Source: Escherichia ruysiae
GTDB taxonomy: Bacteria; Pseudomonadota; Gammaproteobacteria; Enterobacterales; Enterobacteriaceae
Direction of reading: 5' to 3'
Assembly: GCF_031323975.1 (NCBI RefSeq)
Contig: NZ_JAVIWS010000001.1
Coordinates: 2,232,001-2,296,000 of the forward strand
DNA: 64,000 nt
Shown piece after piece: positions 4,712 through 13,525 of the stretch. The position numbers and the translations under genes were made by a program. Every line of letters begins with the position of its first letter. Positions within the stretch are counted from its first letter, which is position 1. The notes beneath the pieces were generated by a model, which was not told where the DNA came from, made no database searches, and was given only the letters and a program-made list of their open reading frames with translations.

Positions 4712-4774
4712 CCGGGCCTTAATAGCTGATGGGGAGAATTAGGGGGAGGGGCGATGCCTGCCCCATACCCAACA

Positions 4775-5104
4775 TCACCGCCCATACTCATCTTCCATTC
4801 TCCGCTCTTCATCTTCCAGCTGCCGACGCTCCTGATCAAGCTGGCGCTGGCGGTCGTCCAGCTGCCTGCGGCGATCTTCAAACTGGCGGCGGCGGTCGTC
4901 ATATTGTCTGCGACGATCGTCGCTCACTTGACGCTGCCAGCCGTCGTCGCGCGAATCTTCATAGTCACGCCCACGGTCAGGGTTATAAGCGTCGTTAATC
5001 GCCTGCTGAATATTACCAATCGTGTCGTCGATAATATCGGCCTGAGCCGGAACGGTGGTCAGCGTGAGCAGGGTGAAAAGAAAGAGCGTGGAGTAAGGTT
5101 TCAT
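4775..5104 (-). CDS. yjdP: Periplasmic/secreted YjdP, charged heptad-repeat protein
   Basis: A 109-residue protein with a Sec signal peptide (cleavage after VPAQA near residue 24), then a short globular stretch, then an extremely charged C-terminal half. That half consists of six 7-residue repeats of the type DDRRRQ-hydrophobic, which should form a continuous helix or coiled coil. The start at 5104 was chosen because it gives the proper signal peptide and the K-12 length. Function is unknown. It ends 63 bp from the convergent yjdN, without the phn operon between them. Confidence 0.9.
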   Translation of the reverse strand: MKPYSTLFLFTLLTLTTVPAQADIIDDTIGNIQQAINDAYNPDRGRDYEDSRDDGWQRQVSDDRRRQYDDRRRQFEDRRRQLDDRQRQLDQERRQLEDEERRMEDEYGR

Positions 5105-5172: not shown

Positions 5173-5835
5173 TCAAATACGGTAAGGCGCAGACTCTTCC
5201 ATTAGCTGGATAGCTCGCCGTTTATTTTCCGCCACCAGCACAATGCTATGACATTTTTGATCCGGAGAAATACTCCAGATACGTTCTTCCGGAATGCAGC
5301 CACCATCGTAGATCACTTTCGTGCCATCGTAAGGCCAAAATGTCTCTTGTTCAGTGTCTAATATAAACACCGAAATCTGATCGGACTCGCGCGCGATCTT
5401 CTGCCGGAGCATCTTCCCGCCATCATACTGATCAAAATCGCTGATGAGTGTGATTCCGCATTGCAGGATTAACGCTTCATACAGTCGCGTTGCCAGACCT
5501 TTATCGCGTTCACCTGGGGAGACGCAGATACCTTCCACTTGTACCAGATCCGAGTCTTCCCACCAGCGTTCAACGGCAATAATATCGCTGCCGAACTCTT
5601 TTTTACGCTGCAGGTCGAGAGCGGCGAGTACCCGATGACGTGGCACGCCTGCAAAAACTTCAATGTCCGCTTCAATGATGGCCGCTCTTGGCGTCTGGCT
5701 GTCATAAATCACCTGTAACAGACGCCCGGAAAGCTCGATCTCTTCCACCACGCGAAAAGAACGAGCAACCGTCATTGGGCTATAGGTGGTTGGCATCACG
5801 ATCATATGTGAATCGCCTCTTGTCAGTACTGACAT
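5173..5835 (-). CDS. GNAT-like acyltransferase domain protein, unassigned
   Basis: I do not recognise this gene by name. The 220-residue protein carries a GNAT motif A near its middle, CVSPGERDKGLATRLYEAL, with the R-x-x-G-x-A acetyl-CoA pyrophosphate-binding signature. A second region near the C-terminus resembles no family I know. The start at 5835 has AAGGAATT just upstream; a longer frame from a TTG at 5928 would overlap the sensor-kinase stop, and a Met at 5805 is also possible. It is downstream of and co-oriented with the hybrid kinase (gap about 80 bp). There is no signal peptide, so it should be cytosolic. The substrate is unknown; phage-type or self-standing GNATs are alternatives. 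Confidence 0.6.
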   Translation of the reverse strand: MSVLTRGDSHMIVMPTTYSPMTVARSFRVVEEIELSGRLLQVIYDSQTPRAAIIEADIEVFAGVPRHRVLAALDLQRKKEFGSDIIAVERWWEDSDLVQVEGICVSPGERDKGLATRLYEALILQCGITLISDFDQYDGGKMLRQKIARESDQISVFILDTEQETFWPYDGTKVIYDGGCIPEERIWSISPDQKCHSIVLVAENKRRAIQLMEESAPYRI

Positions 5836-5917
5836 AATTCCTTTTATATCCCATTCAGAGCAGAATTGCTCACAATAGCAGCACGTTTGCTCCAGGCCTC
5901 TTGATAAATTCTGAAAA

Positions 5918-8182
5918 TCATCCCTCAATTTGCCCCAATGCCTGCGCCAGTTGCACGCGGGTAAAAGGTTTGCGCAGCAGCGCCACTTCTGGCAACGCGG
6001 GGTTATAGCTGGGGCGTAAATCCTGACCGCTGATGAGCAGCAGCGTCAGGTGTGGGTAGCGTTTGCGTGCTGCATTGACCACTTCTGCGCCGCTCATACC
6101 GCCTGGGAGCATTAAGTCGCTGATAAAAATATCGATTTCCACTGATGCCGCCAGCAGATCCAGCGCCTGTTCGCCGCTGCTGGCTTCCAGCGTCAAATAG
6201 CCCAGCAGGTGCAACTGTTCGCAGATTGTCTGGCGTACTGCAGCTTCATCTTCCAGCACCAACACCAGCTTATCGCTGCTGACGGCTGTCTGTTCTACCA
6301 CCGCTGACGATACATTTTTCGCCGCCAACAACGCACGGGGAAGCTGTAGTCTGACTGTCGTTCCCTGCCCCGGCGCGCTTTCGATTTCCACCCTCCCGCC
6401 GGACTGACGCACGAAACCATAGACCATCGACAAGCCCAGCCCGCTGCCACTGCCCGTCTGTTTGGTGGTAAAGAACGGCTCGAATACCTGGCTTTTCACC
6501 TCCTGCGACATTCCACAGCCATGATCGATAACCTCCAGAGCCACCATGTCCTGACGCTGCCCACCGCTACGGGTGACACGCTGGTTCCAGGTGCGGATTT
6601 TGAGGGTTCCCGTCAGCCCTTCCATCGCATCACGAGCGTTCATCACCAGGTTGATGATGGCGTTTTCCAGTTGGCTGACGTCAATCCACGCAGGCCACGC
6701 CGGAGACTGCGCTTCAATCTCCAGCGTCAGCGTTGCCGGTAAGGAGTGGCGCATCAATTCGCTTAACTCTTCCAGTAATGTTTTCAGTTCAATGGCTTGT
6801 GGATGTAAGGACTGCTTGCGGGAAAACGCCAACAGTCGCTGGGTTAGTAGCGCGCCACGTTCGGCGGCTTGCTGCGCTCGCTGTATTCGCGGCGCGTCGG
6901 GCGAGTCTGTGTTCACCAGCTCCAGGCTGCCAATAATCACCGCCAACAGATTATTAAAATCATGCGCCAGTCCCCCCGTCAGTTGCCCGACCGCTTTTAG
7001 TTTCTGGCTATGCAACAGCGCCTCTTCCAGCCCCTGCCGCTCGGTTTGAGCAATCTCCATCTGCGTGGTTTTCTCTTTCAGCAGCCGTGACGTCCGCTCA
7101 AGCGATGCGGTATTACGGGCGAAGACGTTAAAGGCGCGTGCCAGTTCACCTAACTCATCGCGCCGCTGTAACGCCGGAAAGCTGACGTCTGCTTCACCGT
7201 GCGCCAGACGGCTCATGGCGCGGGAAATCGCCGTCAGGTTTGAGCCGAGATTGCGATAGATGTACCAACCTGCAAATGCGGTGATCACCACCGCTAACAG
7301 GGCAAAAATCATGATCACCCTCTCGCCGGAGCGCAGATCCTGGTAACTTTGTGCTACCCGCTGACCGGAAAGCATCGCCACCTGTTCGGCATAATGGTTT
7401 ATATCGCTGTTAAGGATCGCCACCAGAGCTTTGATGTGAAACATATACCAGCTAATCGCCAGATCGCTTTGCTCCAGTGACGCCGAAAGCGGCGCGAGTT
7501 TACGTAGTTCATCATTGAAATCAGTAAGTAGCGTATTTACTAACGGCGTATCACTATGAGTCGGCAGCGCAGACATCACTTCAACCAGTTGATGAATAAT
7601 CGCCTGCGGTGCTGGAGTGGCAATGGCGGCAACGATCAGCCGGTTCATCTCGTTAAGCAAAAGATCATCTTCCGCGTAAGTGACTTTTTGCAGATGCCGC
7701 AGATAACTTAAGTTTTGATATAGCGAACTTAACAGCGCGTTACGTTCCAGGTGCCGCCTTTGCCCCCGCTCCAGCATTCCGCCGACGCTGGTTTGCAGTT
7801 CATTACTGCGCTGGATGATTCGCGCCACCAGCCCGGCGTCCTGCTGTGCTAAAGGCGCGTTCGCCAGTTGTGCAAGCGAGCTTTTTAATGCCCGCTGTGT
7901 CTCCTGCAATCGCTCGGCTTCACCTTTATATTCCAGCGCCCCCACCACCTGTGATAATCGCACCGCCGCTGTCGCCACGTTTGCGGTGTCGCGCGCCAGA
8001 TTCAGGCTGCCGGTCATATCATCCACCGTTTGCTGCTGCACCTGCTCCTGCATCTGGCTGGCATGACGAAAGCCCATTACCGCCACGCCGCTGACCATCA
8101 GCGTCACCGCCACCACAAGCAAATTTAAAAGCAGCAACCGCCCGCGCGCGCTGGCAAAAAAGTGACGTCCGGGGTGCGCCAT
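5918..8182 (-). CDS. Hybrid sensor histidine kinase, TorS-like
   Basis: A 754-residue inner-membrane sensor. TM1 is at about 17-39, followed by a helical periplasmic sensor of roughly 250 residues, TM2 at about 289-309, HAMP, then HisKA with the phosphoacceptor His near residue 407 in GGLAHDFNNLL. HATPase_c has N (NLVMNARDAM), G1 (DHGCGM) and G2 (GSGSGLGLSMVYG) boxes, and the C-terminal receiver has Asp near residue 689 (FISDLMLPGG). There is no HPt domain, so it is shorter than TorS, which has one. ATG 8182 with GGAG was chosen over an upstream in-frame Met. It is divergent from the ABC operon, and its likely partner is the regulator at 12818-13525. Confidence 0.88.
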   Translation of the reverse strand: MAHPGRHFFASARGRLLLLNLLVVAVTLMVSGVAVMGFRHASQMQEQVQQQTVDDMTGSLNLARDTANVATAAVRLSQVVGALEYKGEAERLQETQRALKSSLAQLANAPLAQQDAGLVARIIQRSNELQTSVGGMLERGQRRHLERNALLSSLYQNLSYLRHLQKVTYAEDDLLLNEMNRLIVAAIATPAPQAIIHQLVEVMSALPTHSDTPLVNTLLTDFNDELRKLAPLSASLEQSDLAISWYMFHIKALVAILNSDINHYAEQVAMLSGQRVAQSYQDLRSGERVIMIFALLAVVITAFAGWYIYRNLGSNLTAISRAMSRLAHGEADVSFPALQRRDELGELARAFNVFARNTASLERTSRLLKEKTTQMEIAQTERQGLEEALLHSQKLKAVGQLTGGLAHDFNNLLAVIIGSLELVNTDSPDAPRIQRAQQAAERGALLTQRLLAFSRKQSLHPQAIELKTLLEELSELMRHSLPATLTLEIEAQSPAWPAWIDVSQLENAIINLVMNARDAMEGLTGTLKIRTWNQRVTRSGGQRQDMVALEVIDHGCGMSQEVKSQVFEPFFTTKQTGSGSGLGLSMVYGFVRQSGGRVEIESAPGQGTTVRLQLPRALLAAKNVSSAVVEQTAVSSDKLVLVLEDEAAVRQTICEQLHLLGYLTLEASSGEQALDLLAASVEIDIFISDLMLPGGMSGAEVVNAARKRYPHLTLLLISGQDLRPSYNPALPEVALLRKPFTRVQLAQALGQIEG

Positions 8183-8207
8183 ATCACGCTCCGTAAAGAA
8201 AAATCGC

Positions 8208-8223
8208 AATATGACAAATATGA
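8208..8223. promoter_or_regulatory. Direct repeat resembling tandem TorR boxes
   Basis: AATATGA occurs at 8208-8214 and again at 8217-8223, phased by 9 bp. Read on the minus strand, the stretch CCGTTCATAT matches the TorR box CTGTTCATAT at nine of ten positions, with a weaker second copy beside it. It lies in the 113-bp gap between the divergent sensor-kinase and ABC genes, a natural place for the cognate OmpR-type regulator. Binding is inferred. Confidence 0.45.
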
Positions 8224-8295
8224 ACGGCTTCTGACATTTTGCATTTACTTTCCTGTGATGGAGTGCTGATATCGACAACCTCGCAGGAGTCCGCC

Positions 8296-9816
8296 ATGAA
8301 CAGCACGCCAGTTCTGGAGATGCGCAATATTGCCAAAGCCTTCGGCAAATTTTACGCGCTCAAAGGGGTGGATTTGACGGTTTACCCTGGCGAGATCCAT
8401 GCCCTGATGGGGGAAAACGGCGCCGGAAAAAGCACGCTGATGAAGGTGCTGGCGGGGGCGTATACCGCCACCAGCGGCGAGATCCTGATAGACGGCAAGC
8501 CCTTTCACATTCGCACACCGAAAGATGCCTTAAGCGCCGGTATTACGCTGATTTATCAGGAGATGCAGCTGGCACCGAATCTGACGGTGGCAGAAAATAT
8601 TTTCCTCGGCAGCGAGCTTTCCCACGGCGGGCTGGTGCAGCGTAAAGAGATGCTGGTGCAGGCGCAAAAAGTGATCGACCGCCTCGGCGCGCAGTTTAAC
8701 GCCAGCGATAAAGTCATGACGCTGACCATCGCCGAGCAACAGCAGGTCGAAATCGCCCGCGCGTTGCATCGCAACAGCCGCATTCTGGTGATGGACGAAC
8801 CTACCGCCGCCCTCTCCTCCCGCGAAACTCACCGCCTGTTTGAACTGATTATGCGACTGCGCGATGAAGGGATGGCGATTATCTACATCAGCCACCGCAT
8901 GGCAGAAGTGTATGAGCTTTCCGATCGCGTCAGCGTGCTGCGTGACGGGCAATACGTTGGCAGCCTGACCCGCGACAATCTCAACGCCGGGGAACTGGTG
9001 CGGATGATGGTCGGCAGGCCGCTGAGCGATCTGTTCAATAAAGAGCGCGATATCCCGCTCGGCAAAGCCCGCCTGAACGTTCACCACCTGACCGACGGCG
9101 GCAAAGTCCAGCCGAGTAGCCTGCTGGTGCGTTCCGGCGAAATTGTCGGCCTCGCCGGGCTGGTGGGCGCCGGACGTTCCGAACTGGCGCAGTTAATTTT
9201 CGGCGTGCGGAAAGCGACAGGCGGAATGATTGAAGTCGATGGCGAACCGGTGGTGATCCACTCCCCGCGCGAAGCCATCGATCTTGGCATTGGTTTTCTC
9301 ACCGAAAACCGCAAAGAACAGGGATTGTTCCTTGAAATGGCGGCAGCCGAAAACATCACCATGGCAACCCTGGAGCGCGATGCCAGCTGGGGGATGCTCA
9401 ATCGCAAAAAAGCACAAACCATTTCCGATGACGCCATTAAGTTGCTCAACATCCGCGTGCCTCATGCCCAGGTGCGAGCAGGTGGGCTTTCGGGCGGTAA
9501 TCAGCAAAAACTGTTGATCTCCCGCTGGGTGGCGATTGACCCACGCATTTTACTGCTCGATGAACCCACGCGCGGCGTGGATGTCGGCGCAAAAAGCGAG
9601 ATCTACCGGATCATGAACGAGATGGCGCGCAAGGGCGTGGCGATCCTGATGATCTCCAGCGAACTGCCGGAGATAGTCGGGATGAGCGATCGCGTTTATG
9701 TAATGCGCGAAGGCAGCATTGCCGGTGAGTTAAACGGCAACAACATCACCCAGGAAAACATTATGACCTTAGCGACCGGCGTCAACGACGCCCATTCCCA
9801 GGCGGTGCGCTCATGA
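8296..9816 (+). CDS. Sugar ABC transporter ATP-binding protein (RbsA/AlsA family)
   Basis: A 506-residue double-NBD ATPase of the carbohydrate uptake transporter-2 class. NBD1 has Walker [10 protein letters not shown] (39-47) and Walker B with DEPTAALS near residue 167. NBD2 has a degenerate P-loop GLVGAGRSE, a full signature LSGGNQQ, and [13 protein letters not shown]. Such proteins energise uptake of ribose, allose, xylose, galactose and related sugars; the substrate cannot be read from the ATPase. The start at 8296 has AGGAG six bases upstream. It is first in the operon and overlaps the permease by 4 bp. It occupies the location of alsA in K-12 but belongs to a separate locus with its own regulators. 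Confidence 0.93.
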
Positions 9817-10787
9817 CGACATCTGCAAAGACCTCTGCCAAAAAAATGTTAATGAGCGATCTGATGCAAACGGTCGGCATTTTGCCGATTCTGATCCTGA
9901 TCGTGGCGGTTTTTGGCTTTATCGCGCCGAACTTTTTTACCGAAAGTAACCTGCTGAATATTACCCGCCAGGCGTCGATCAACATTGTGCTGGCGGCAGG
10001 AATGACCTTCATCATTTTGACCGGCGGGATCGATCTTTCTGTAGGTTCAATTCTCGGCACCACGGCGGTGGCGGCGATGGTCGTCTCCCTTAGCCCGGAG
10101 TTCGCCATGCTGTCGATTCCAGCGGCGCTGATGCTCGGCCTGCTGCTGGGGTTGTTCAACGGCGCACTGGTGGCCTTTGCCGGATTGCCGCCATTTATCG
10201 TCACGCTCGGCACCTATACGGCGCTACGCGGGGCGGCGTATCTGCTGGCAGACGGCACCACGGTCATCAACTCCAACATTAATTTCGAGTGGATAGGTAA
10301 TAACTATCTCGGGCCGGTCCCGTGGCTGGTGGTGATTGCGCTGGCGGTGATCGTGGTGTGCTGGTTTATTCTGCGCCGCACCACACTTGGCGTTCATATC
10401 TACGCCGTCGGCGGCAATATGCAGGCGGCGCGTCTTACCGGCATTAAGGTCTGGCTGGTGCTGCTGTTTGTTTATGGCATGAGCGGCCTGCTTTCAGGGC
10501 TGGGCGGGATTATGAGCGCCTCGCGGCTATACAGCGCCAACGGCAACTTAGGCATGGGTTACGAACTGGACGCCATTGCGGCGGTGATCCTCGGCGGCAC
10601 CAGTTTTGTTGGCGGGATCGGCACCATCACCGGCACGCTGGTCGGCGCGCTGATTATCGCCACGCTCAACAACGGCATGACCTTAATGGGCGTCTCTTAC
10701 TTCTGGCAGTTGGTGATCAAAGGGGCGGTGATCATCATTGCGGTGCTGATCGACAAATACCGTACCCGACATCATCAAAGCGCATAA
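9813..10787 (+). CDS. Sugar ABC transporter permease (RbsC/AlsC family)
   Basis: A 324-residue polytopic inner-membrane protein with about eight to ten hydrophobic segments and the family hallmark [11 protein letters not shown] near residue 70. A later loop [16 protein letters not shown] matches the conserved cytoplasmic coupling loop of BPD_transp_2 permeases. It begins within the last four bases of the ATPase gene, indicating translational coupling, and the binding-protein gene follows after 30 bp. Confidence 0.93.
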
Positions 10788-10817
10788 CAACAATACCCTA
10801 CACATGAGGAATACAGT

Positions 10818-11759
10818 ATGAGATTGAAGCCCTTAGTGACCGCGCTCTGTGCAGGCGCGCTGCTGGCTGCGGCACCGTTCGCCCAGGCGAAAGAACTGAA
10901 ATCGATAGGCGTAACGGTAGGCGACCTGGCGAACCCGTTCTTCGTACAGATAACCAAAGGCGCGGAGCTGGAAGCGCGTAAACTGGCAGGCGATAACGTC
11001 AAAGTGACGCTGGTTTCCAGCGGCTACGATCTAGGCCAGCAGGTGTCGCAAATTGACAACTTTATCGCCGCTAACGTCGATATGATCATCCTTAACGCTG
11101 CCGATTCAAAAGGGATCGGCCCGGCGGTGAAACGGGCGAAAGACGCCGGGATCGTGGTGGTGGCGGTTGACGTAGCGGCAGAAGGTGCCGACGCCACCAT
11201 TACTTCCGATAACACCCAGGCGGGCGAAATGGCCTGTAAATACATCACCGATCGCCTGAAAGGCAAAGGCAACGTGGTGATCATCAACGGCCCGCCGGTG
11301 TCCGCCGTGCAGAACCGCGTCGAAGGCTGCCAGACCGAATTTAAACGCCATCCTGACATCAAGGTGCTCTCTGACAACCAGAACGCCAAAGGCAGTCGTG
11401 AAGGCGGACTGGAGGTGATGACCGGGCTGCTGGCGGCGAATCCGAAGATCGACGGCGTGTTTGCGATTAACGATCCCACCGCGATCGGCGCCGATCTGGC
11501 AGCAAAACAGGCACAACGTAACGAGTTCTTTATTGTTGGCGTGGATGGTAGCCCGGACGCCGAAGAGGCGCTGAAGCGTGAGAACTCATTGTTTGTCGCG
11601 ACTCCCGCACAAGACCCACAGGTGATGGCGGCGAAAGCCGTCGAGATCGGTTATGACATTTTGCAGGGCAAACCCGCGCCGAAAGAGCCGGTGCTGATCC
11701 CGGTGACGATGATCGACAAAGACAACGTCGGCAATTACAAAGGCTGGACGGTGAAATAA
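10818..11759 (+). CDS. Periplasmic sugar-binding protein (RbsB-like)
   Basis: A 313-residue type I periplasmic binding protein. The Sec signal peptide is 24 residues, ending in FAQA. The mature chain begins KELKSIGVTVGDLANPFF, the ribose/allose-type ligand-binding start. Aromatic and charged residues at positions typical of the pyranose pocket are present, but the ligand cannot be named. The two-component sensor next door could respond to this protein or to the sugar itself. A hairpin lies just after its stop codon. Confidence 0.92.
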   Translation: MRLKPLVTALCAGALLAAAPFAQAKELKSIGVTVGDLANPFFVQITKGAELEARKLAGDNVKVTLVSSGYDLGQQVSQIDNFIAANVDMIILNAADSKGIGPAVKRAKDAGIVVVAVDVAAEGADATITSDNTQAGEMACKYITDRLKGKGNVVIINGPPVSAVQNRVEGCQTEFKRHPDIKVLSDNQNAKGSREGGLEVMTGLLAANPKIDGVFAINDPTAIGADLAAKQAQRNEFFIVGVDGSPDAEEALKRENSLFVATPAQDPQVMAAKAVEIGYDILQGKPAPKEPVLIPVTMIDKDNVGNYKGWTVK

Positions 11760-11766
11760 GTCCGAA

Positions 11767-11789
11767 GCCGGGCGGCGACGCTGCCCGGC
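11767..11789 (+). terminator. Intra-operonic hairpin after the binding-protein gene
   Basis: A seven-base-pair stem GCCGGGC/GCCCGGC with a 9-nt loop and no T-run. It sits between the binding-protein gene and the sugar kinase, as in many ABC operons. It probably acts as an RNA stabiliser or partial terminator, giving more binding protein than kinase. Confidence 0.5.
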
Positions 11790-11819
11790 GGTAGCGCATT
11801 AGCTAATCCAGGAGCTGGC

Positions 11820-12821
11820 ATGATGGAACGTAAAGGTATTATCGCAGCAGGAAATATGCTGGTTGATCACGTCCACCAGATTATCCAGTGGCCGGAGCGC
11901 GGCTGGCTGGCGGAGATCACCCACAGCGAACGCTCTACCGGTGGCGCACCGCTTAACGTCCTGCTGACGCTGGCGAAAATGCGCGCCGGGCTGCCTTTGC
12001 AGGCGGTCGGGCTAATCGGTCAGGACAGCGATGGCGATTACATTATGGCGATGCTGGAGCAATATCACGTCAACCGCCAGCATGTGCAGCGCACCACTTT
12101 TGCGCCGACGTCGATGTCGCAGGTGATGACCGATCCCAGCGGACAGCGCACATTTTTCCATTCACCGGGCGCTAACCGGCTGCTGGATCTTCCGGCGTTC
12201 GACCAGCTTGATAGCAGCATGAAAATCTTCCATCTCGGTTATCTGCTGTTGCTCGAAAGCCTGGATATGCCAGACGATGTTTATGGCACTCGAAGCGCCC
12301 GCCTGCTGGCGCAGATGCATGACGCTGGCTATGAAACCTGTCTCGATCTGGTTTCCCGCAAGGGCGATCCGCGCTATCAGCCGCTGGTATTGCCCGCGTT
12401 GCGTCATCTGGATTATCTGGTGATTAACGAACTGGAGGCTGGGGAATTTAGCGGGCTGGAGATTCGTTTGCCTAACGGCGAGCCACATATCGCGCATATT
12501 GCCGCCGCCGCGCGCGAACTGTTAGATGCGGGCGTGCGCCAGCGCGTGGTGATTCACTGCGCGGAAGGCGCATGGGGAGAGACGCCGGAACAGGGCGGCA
12601 TGTGGATACCCTCACGGAAATTAGAACCGCGCGAGATTATCGGTAGCGTCGGCGCGGGTGATGCGTTTTGTGCCGGATTTTTGTATGGCTGCCACGAACG
12701 CTGGACGCTTACCGAGAGCATCAAACTGGCACATGCCTGCGCACGCGCGAGCCTGTTATGCGCCAACGCCATCGACGGGGCAAAAACACTGGAAGAGCTG
12801 CAAACAGAAATGTCGGATTAA
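11820..12821 (+). CDS. PfkB/ribokinase-family carbohydrate kinase
   Basis: A 333-residue kinase of the PfkB family. Near the N-terminus is the substrate-binding Gly-Gly motif (STGGAPLNVLLTLAKM), and near the C-terminus GSVGAGDAFCAGF with the catalytic Asp near residue 281. The family phosphorylates sugars or nucleosides on a hydroxymethyl group. Being last in the ABC operon, it likely phosphorylates the imported sugar. Two adjacent ATGs lie at 11820 and 11823, and AGGAG is positioned for either. The stop codon overlaps that of the convergent response regulator. No isomerase, epimerase or aldolase is nearby, so the product must enter central metabolism through genes elsewhere. Confidence 0.9.
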   Translation: MMERKGIIAAGNMLVDHVHQIIQWPERGWLAEITHSERSTGGAPLNVLLTLAKMRAGLPLQAVGLIGQDSDGDYIMAMLEQYHVNRQHVQRTTFAPTSMSQVMTDPSGQRTFFHSPGANRLLDLPAFDQLDSSMKIFHLGYLLLLESLDMPDDVYGTRSARLLAQMHDAGYETCLDLVSRKGDPRYQPLVLPALRHLDYLVINELEAGEFSGLEIRLPNGEPHIAHIAAAARELLDAGVRQRVVIHCAEGAWGETPEQGGMWIPSRKLEPREIIGSVGAGDAFCAGFLYGCHERWTLTESIKLAHACARASLLCANAIDGAKTLEELQTEMSD

Positions 12822-13525
12822 TGCACGTCGGCAGCGAAGACGTAACCCAGACCGCGCAGAGTTTTAATCAACATTGGCTGATGCGGGTTCAGTTCGATTT
12901 TGCGTCGTAGTCGCATGATTAATACGTCGATGGTGCGATCAAACACCTCTATGCTGTCACTATGGGTAAACTCCAGCAACTGCTCACGGCTCAATACCCG
13001 ACGGGCGTTTTGTGCCAGAGCCAGCAACAAGCAATATTCGCCCTGAGTCAGCTCAACAAGTTGCTGTCGCGGATTGTGTAGCTGGCAGCGTGTGGTATCG
13101 AGATACCAGCCATTAAATGACAGCCCGGCATTTTTCTCCTCATTGACCGCCAGCACGCCAACGCGCCGTAACACCGCTTTTAGTCGCGCGACCACTACCC
13201 GTGGGGTAAATGGCTTGCAGATGTAATCATCCGCGCCCATTTCCAGCCCGACCACCACATCAGACTCACTGCCCAGACCGGTCAGCATCACCACCGGCAA
13301 TGCAGGACGCATTTTCTGTAGTTGTTGTAATACCATCAGGCCGTTGGTATCAGGCAACATCATATCCAGCACCACCAGTGCAATATCAGGATCGCCTTCA
13401 ATACACGATATTGCCGCCTGTCCGGTATGGCAGACTGAAACCGTAAAGACATGTTCGCTTAACACGTCCTGCAACAGTGCACAGATAGCCGCGTCATCAT
13501 CCACCACCAGCACCACGGGTTTCAT
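12818..13525 (-). CDS. OmpR-family response regulator (TorR-like)
   Basis: A 235-residue two-domain regulator. The receiver domain has acidic residues DDD at 9-11, the phosphoacceptor Asp near residue 54 (LDMMLPD) and a Lys in YICKPF. A winged-helix DNA-binding domain follows, ending GYVFAADVH, close to the C-terminus of TorR. ATG 13525 with GGAG is preferred; an in-frame ATG at 13540 would add five residues. It is separated from the hybrid kinase by the whole ABC operon and is convergent with it, but no other sensor is present, so the two are the obvious pair. It probably controls the ABC operon. Confidence 0.88.
   Translation of the reverse strand: MKPVVLVVDDDAAICALLQDVLSEHVFTVSVCHTGQAAISCIEGDPDIALVVLDMMLPDTNGLMVLQQLQKMRPALPVVMLTGLGSESDVVVGLEMGADDYICKPFTPRVVVARLKAVLRRVGVLAVNEEKNAGLSFNGWYLDTTRCQLHNPRQQLVELTQGEYCLLLALAQNARRVLSREQLLEFTHSDSIEVFDRTIDVLIMRLRRKIELNPHQPMLIKTLRGLGYVFAADVH

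Follow-up and report, generated by a model that had tools for sequence, protein, structure and literature searches.

A naturally shortened lmv-lmu sugar locus in Escherichia ruysiae lacks the isomerase and aldolase genes

Introduction

What is a regulated sugar importer kept for when the isomerase and aldolase genes of its operon are missing? The question is raised by a block of six genes (5918-13525) in a window of 64,000 nucleotides of Escherichia ruysiae (assembly GCF_031323975.1, contig NZ_JAVIWS010000001.1, positions 2,232,001 to 2,296,000 of the forward strand; all coordinates below refer to the window). Judged by its sequence, the block is the orthologue of lmvK-lmuXYZIAK-lmvR, known in E. 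coli O157:H7 EDL933 as the OI167 island and described there as an uptake system for D-lyxose and D-mannose under two-component control (mBio 2023, PMC10128022). According to the part of that report drawn on here, EDL933 is impaired in its growth on lyxose when lmvR, lmvK or the operon is deleted, and the operon is induced by both lyxose and mannose. It sustains growth on mannose when manA is removed and lmvR overexpressed; with manA intact its loss is without effect on mannose (PMC10128022). Since the two loci are orthologous, the sugar had already been assigned. A first-pass annotation of this DNA, which knew of no assigned sugar, is not supported on that point; its suggestion of similar genes in some pathogenic E. 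coli was right. The kind of system is known; the copy in the window is a new, reduced variant of it.

Results

The six genes are intact reading frames whose Pfam matches all exceed the curated cut-offs, and the block and its outer coordinates stand as first annotated. On the reverse strand, lmvK (5918..8182) encodes a hybrid sensor histidine kinase of 754 residues, 95% identical to EDL933 LmvK and carrying HAMP, HisKA, HATPase_c and receiver domains, and lmvR (12818..13525) encodes a response regulator of the OmpR/PhoB family (92% identity to EDL933). Between them, on the forward strand, lie lmuX (8296..9816, ATP-binding cassette (ABC) transporter ATPase, 99%), lmuY (9813..10787, ABC permease with a BPD_transp_2 domain, 99%), lmuZ (10818..11759, periplasmic sugar-binding protein with a Peripla_BP_4 domain, 100% when rounded, and a close relative of the solved structure 4rwe) and lmuK (11820..12821, PfkB-family sugar kinase, 96%), the latter preceded by AGGAG at 11810-11814. 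The starts of the sensor kinase (8182) and the ATPase (8296) were set by homology to EDL933, and the longer TTG frames of the list of open reading frames (ORFs) were not used. The order of the shared genes, their strands and the yjdP-yjcS site are common to both loci, as is the LmvR box: ATATGACAAATATGA (8209..8223, forward strand) is an exact counterpart, upstream of lmuX, of the direct repeat ATATGA-N3-ATATGA footprinted by LmvR in EDL933 (PMC10128022). The phospho-acceptor His407 and the receiver Asp689 of LmvK are equivalent to H410 and D692 of EDL933, whose roles are taken from the same report, and D54 of LmvR is kept. Pfam and orthology to EDL933 together support the earlier description of an ABC importer for monosaccharides that is controlled by a sensor and accompanied by a sugar kinase.

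Unlike OI167, the locus contains neither lmuI nor lmuA. In EDL933 these genes lie between lmuZ and lmuK; lmuI encodes a lyxose/mannose isomerase, with sequence matches to 3kmh and 3mpb among solved structures, and lmuA a class II aldolase. In the alignment with EDL933, homology stops at about 11789 and restarts at about 11811, so that a stretch of 21 bp (11790..11810, forward strand) stands in place of 1,570 bp comprising lmuI and nearly all of lmuA. Neither gene was matched in the locus, and low-stringency blastn against the whole window returned only matches with E 0.13 or worse. In the genome from which the window is taken, the Lyx_isomer family is absent (the E. coli control was positive), LmuI itself was unmatched in a search run without a control, and LmuA found only paralogues at 38-39% identity and one partial match at 30%. 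The first-pass remark on the lack of a nearby isomerase, epimerase or aldolase thus holds for the locus, and the absence is notable because orthologous loci carry both enzymes exactly at the lmuZ-lmuK junction. As for the dedicated, sensor-regulated sugar pathway that had been proposed, the regulated importer and kinase are there, but the pathway itself is not complete with the isomerase and aldolase gone.

The junction was inspected for traces of the lost genes. The likeness between the lmuK leader and the tail of lmuA was no better than that of shuffled sequences (935 of 2000 were as good), and no aldolase remnant is therefore claimed. A G+C-rich hairpin follows lmuZ (11767..11789, forward strand) and is present too in EDL933 and E1V33; the whole 74-nt stretch folds only 1.5 standard deviations better than shuffles. 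A search with PF07221 for a replacement isomerase of the YihS type gave no match and is uninformative, the E. coli control being negative too. RhaA, which may act on lyxose, is present in the genome.

The distribution of the two enzymes was followed in 53 related loci from named genomes, in 48 of which lmvK was recovered. The isomerase is kept in 52 and the aldolase in 51. Both are missing in one locus only, that of 'E. coli' E69 (CP089930.1; L046/G007), which is a second genome of the same species as the window, has the same lmuZ-lmuK junction and is 98.9% identical to it across the locus. L084 is without the aldolase, and in L096 the aldolase match covers only 43%, other genes being broken up as well. 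Two other Escherichia with the locus (L047/G009 and L099/G010) retain both genes, and the parsimonious reading of the sequences is that the pair was lost in the lineage of the window. That the two genes were simply dropped in assembly is highly improbable: this idea has nothing for it beyond its possibility and is contradicted by the same junction in E69, a separate assembly. Of 5426 E. coli genomes, 401 have the transporter-kinase stretch with a coverage of 80% or more; the isomerase-aldolase DNA was found in 401, with a coverage of 80% or more in 400, the two sets having been counted separately. E. coli R32_14_1F (L011:10274-11421) has its own deletion, which starts inside the aldolase and runs on into the kinase gene; this means that losses in this operon have occurred more than once.

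In Citrobacter On2M (L094:282-7946) the binding protein is separated from the isomerase, at the junction that is altered in the window, by a block of VgrG-like, lipase-like and two tandem similar lipoprotein-like ORFs, named from reading the ORFs. In L060 and L085, too, the binding protein was not matched ahead of the isomerase.

Is the remaining operon still in use? As the window and E69 (G007, read as L100) are both without the pair, the differences between them should largely post-date the loss. Nonsynonymous and synonymous differences numbered 1 and 13 in LmuK, 0 and 22 in LmuZ, 1 and 13 in LmuY, 6 and 19 in LmvK, 0 and 5 in LmvR and 1 and 0 in LmuX, the last being uninformative; the neighbour yjcS gave 3 and 25. 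For LmuK, the neutral probability of so few nonsynonymous changes is at most 1.8e-6 with transition weights of 1, 2 and 4. From these counts the shortened operon does not look dead, and what is left of it looks maintained by purifying selection, although the counts come from two genomes only and could be blurred by recombination from outside. The LmvK sensor departs at none of 159 columns that are invariant in 45 relatives. Of 188 LmuK columns that do not vary among 39 relatives, 3 are changed in the window, which counts against its full constancy; its structure model is poor (mean predicted local distance difference test score, pLDDT, of 58.3).

These data bear on two other explanations. One is that the operon became useless once the enzymes were lost and is turning into pseudogenes. 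The absence of two pathway genes, the three LmuK changes at otherwise invariant columns and the further deletion in R32_14_1F would fit with such decay; yet every remaining frame is intact, the LmvR box is exact and the differences between the two loss-sharing genomes are strongly biased towards silent changes in the kinase, the binding protein, the permease, LmvK and LmvR, so that we regard it as rather unlikely. The other is that the pathway has been rewired, LmuK or another kinase phosphorylating the imported sugar directly, or another sugar being used, with isomerase and aldolase dispensable. LmuK is maintained although the enzyme that usually produces its substrate is gone, and the three LmuK changes could be read in the same sense. 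However, LmuZ and the LmvK sensor have hardly changed, and this speaks against a new sugar; direct phosphorylation of an aldose by LmuK is putative. A fructose kinase activity has been reported for EDL933 LmuK (PMC10128022). Rewiring is possible but doubtful in our view.

Compared with E. coli C9 and E1V33, the genes lmvK, lmuK and lmvR have diverged at synonymous sites about 1.4 to 4 times more than lmuX, lmuY and lmuZ, a gap that could come from recombination or from constraint on codon usage.

The exact LmvR box recurs in 28 of the 53 related loci. Boxes with mismatches were sought within the window and exact boxes genome-wide. The genome holds four exact boxes, of which only that of lmuX lies upstream of a gene. 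Rewiring through another LmvR target was considered and set aside, the three further exact boxes falling within coding frames (genes identified by eye). In the same genome, an exact LmvR-type box lies within the opening codons of a frame that looks like an autotransporter (L124:1501-1515). The locus might also be mainly a signalling module in which LmvK and LmvR signal mannose or lyxose to other genes, uptake being of little importance; according to the discussion of PMC10128022, infection of mice by EDL933 did not require the operon, whereas LmvK/LmvR did matter. Against this, the transporter and the kinase are under purifying selection here and a single exact box out of four precedes a gene, weaker boxes not having been sought across the genome; we hold this explanation to be unlikely, a little more so than decay.

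The predicted fold of the LmvK sensor, from models of single chains, may be like that of TorS-type kinases, whose periplasmic sensor is helical and bimodular. TorS works together with a periplasmic binding protein, and in ChvE-VirA-VirG, too, signalling is linked to a binding protein. The locus resembles both TorS-TorT-TorR and ChvE-VirA-VirG in combining a hybrid kinase, an OmpR-type regulator and a binding protein of the RbsB/TorT type. It differs in that its binding protein belongs to a transporter; the contact between LmuZ and LmvK is putative. Matches to VirA-like and VirG models and to ChvE remained below the cut-offs. The sensing step of LmvK is itself a model in PMC10128022.

A swap of the sensor among relatives was suggested by a first tblastn search, in which the alignment took in no more than about half of LmvK in Kosakonia, Buttiauxella, Atlantibacter and others. 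The idea was dropped since the ORFs of four such loci (L059, L062, L074 and L086) encode the same sensor, lengthened by about 100 residues. These lie between HAMP and HisKA, with a PAS_7 domain in L059 (L059:2195-4759), and bring LmvK to 854-879 residues vs 754 in the window, where the insert is absent.

OI167 has been treated as a horizontally acquired island associated with enterohaemorrhagic E. coli (EHEC) (PMC10128022). A phn or yjdP gene lies within 4 kb of the locus in 30 of the 48 loci with lmvK recovered; for the remaining 18, either the stored stretch may stop too soon or the locus may lie at another site. DNA identity between the window and EDL933 is 93.0% and 89.6% in the two blocks of the locus vs 93.0% in the flank on the yjcS-mdt side, a divergence of roughly the same size in locus and flank. 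In K-12 the same chromosomal site is occupied by the als operon (alsRBACEK, for D-allose), as PMC10128022 also states. Like lmv-lmu, als combines a sugar ABC importer and a kinase; it differs in its regulator AlsR, epimerase AlsE and kinase AlsK, and the proteins of the window do not reach the equivalog cut-offs for AlsA, AlsB and AlsC, in agreement with the earlier distinction of the two systems. Among 12 Escherichia genomes, the kinase was found at 95% identity or more in four, a long als match in five (split in one case into two pieces, at 80-84%), neither in three and both in none. In the genome of the window als gave only short partial DNA matches of up to 186 bp, while als DNA was found in 3392 of the 5426 E. 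coli. With so many loci beside phn or yjdP, the locus was probably there ancestrally and not acquired by EHEC, and was probably replaced by als in most E. coli; this does not exclude exchange within Escherichia.

As another difference from EDL933, lmvK is followed by a GNAT-like ORF (5173..5928, reverse strand) that overlaps its 3′ end. We consider it accessory; its Acetyltransf_1 match is just below the cut-off (20.4 vs 20.7 bits). It was matched next to lmvK in 5 of the 53 loci (L046, L047, L049, L058 and L080) and is broken in E. coli R32_14_1F. Further out, at 4712-4775, the phn C-P (carbon-phosphorus) lyase operon, which in K-12 sits between yjdN and yjdP, was not seen between these genes in the ORF list of the window; E. 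coli C9 retains only phnO there.

Discussion

On balance we favour, with some reserve, the view that this is a naturally shortened lmv-lmu locus that still works as a regulated importer, likely for mannose, with housekeeping enzymes acting downstream. By analogy with the orthologue, mannose or lyxose outside the cell would lead LmvK and LmvR to turn on lmuXYZ-lmuK from the LmvR box, most likely through docking of sugar-loaded LmuZ on the helical sensor of LmvK in the fashion of TorS and TorT. LmuXYZ would then import the unphosphorylated sugar. With the isomerase and aldolase steps apparently lost in this lineage, we infer that the substrate has been retained and that the most likely present use is import of mannose, which Mak would convert to mannose-6-phosphate for ManA. 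LmuK may be kept as an accessory ketose/hexose kinase, and use of D-lyxose should be lost or much weakened.

A more novel reading, possible but doubtful, is that this two-component-controlled importer has shed its own isomerase and aldolase and been kept by selection in a rewired, kinase-first form, the imported sugar being phosphorylated directly by the remaining PfkB kinase or by housekeeping kinases. The shortened copy amounts to a natural knock-out of lmuI and lmuA and helps to ask which step of lmu is kept by selection. The predicted TorS-like sensor provides a testable idea for the detection of mannose by LmvK. Finally, the position of the locus beside phn or yjdP in many Enterobacteriaceae and its alternation with als within Escherichia challenge the published view of OI167 as an EHEC acquisition.
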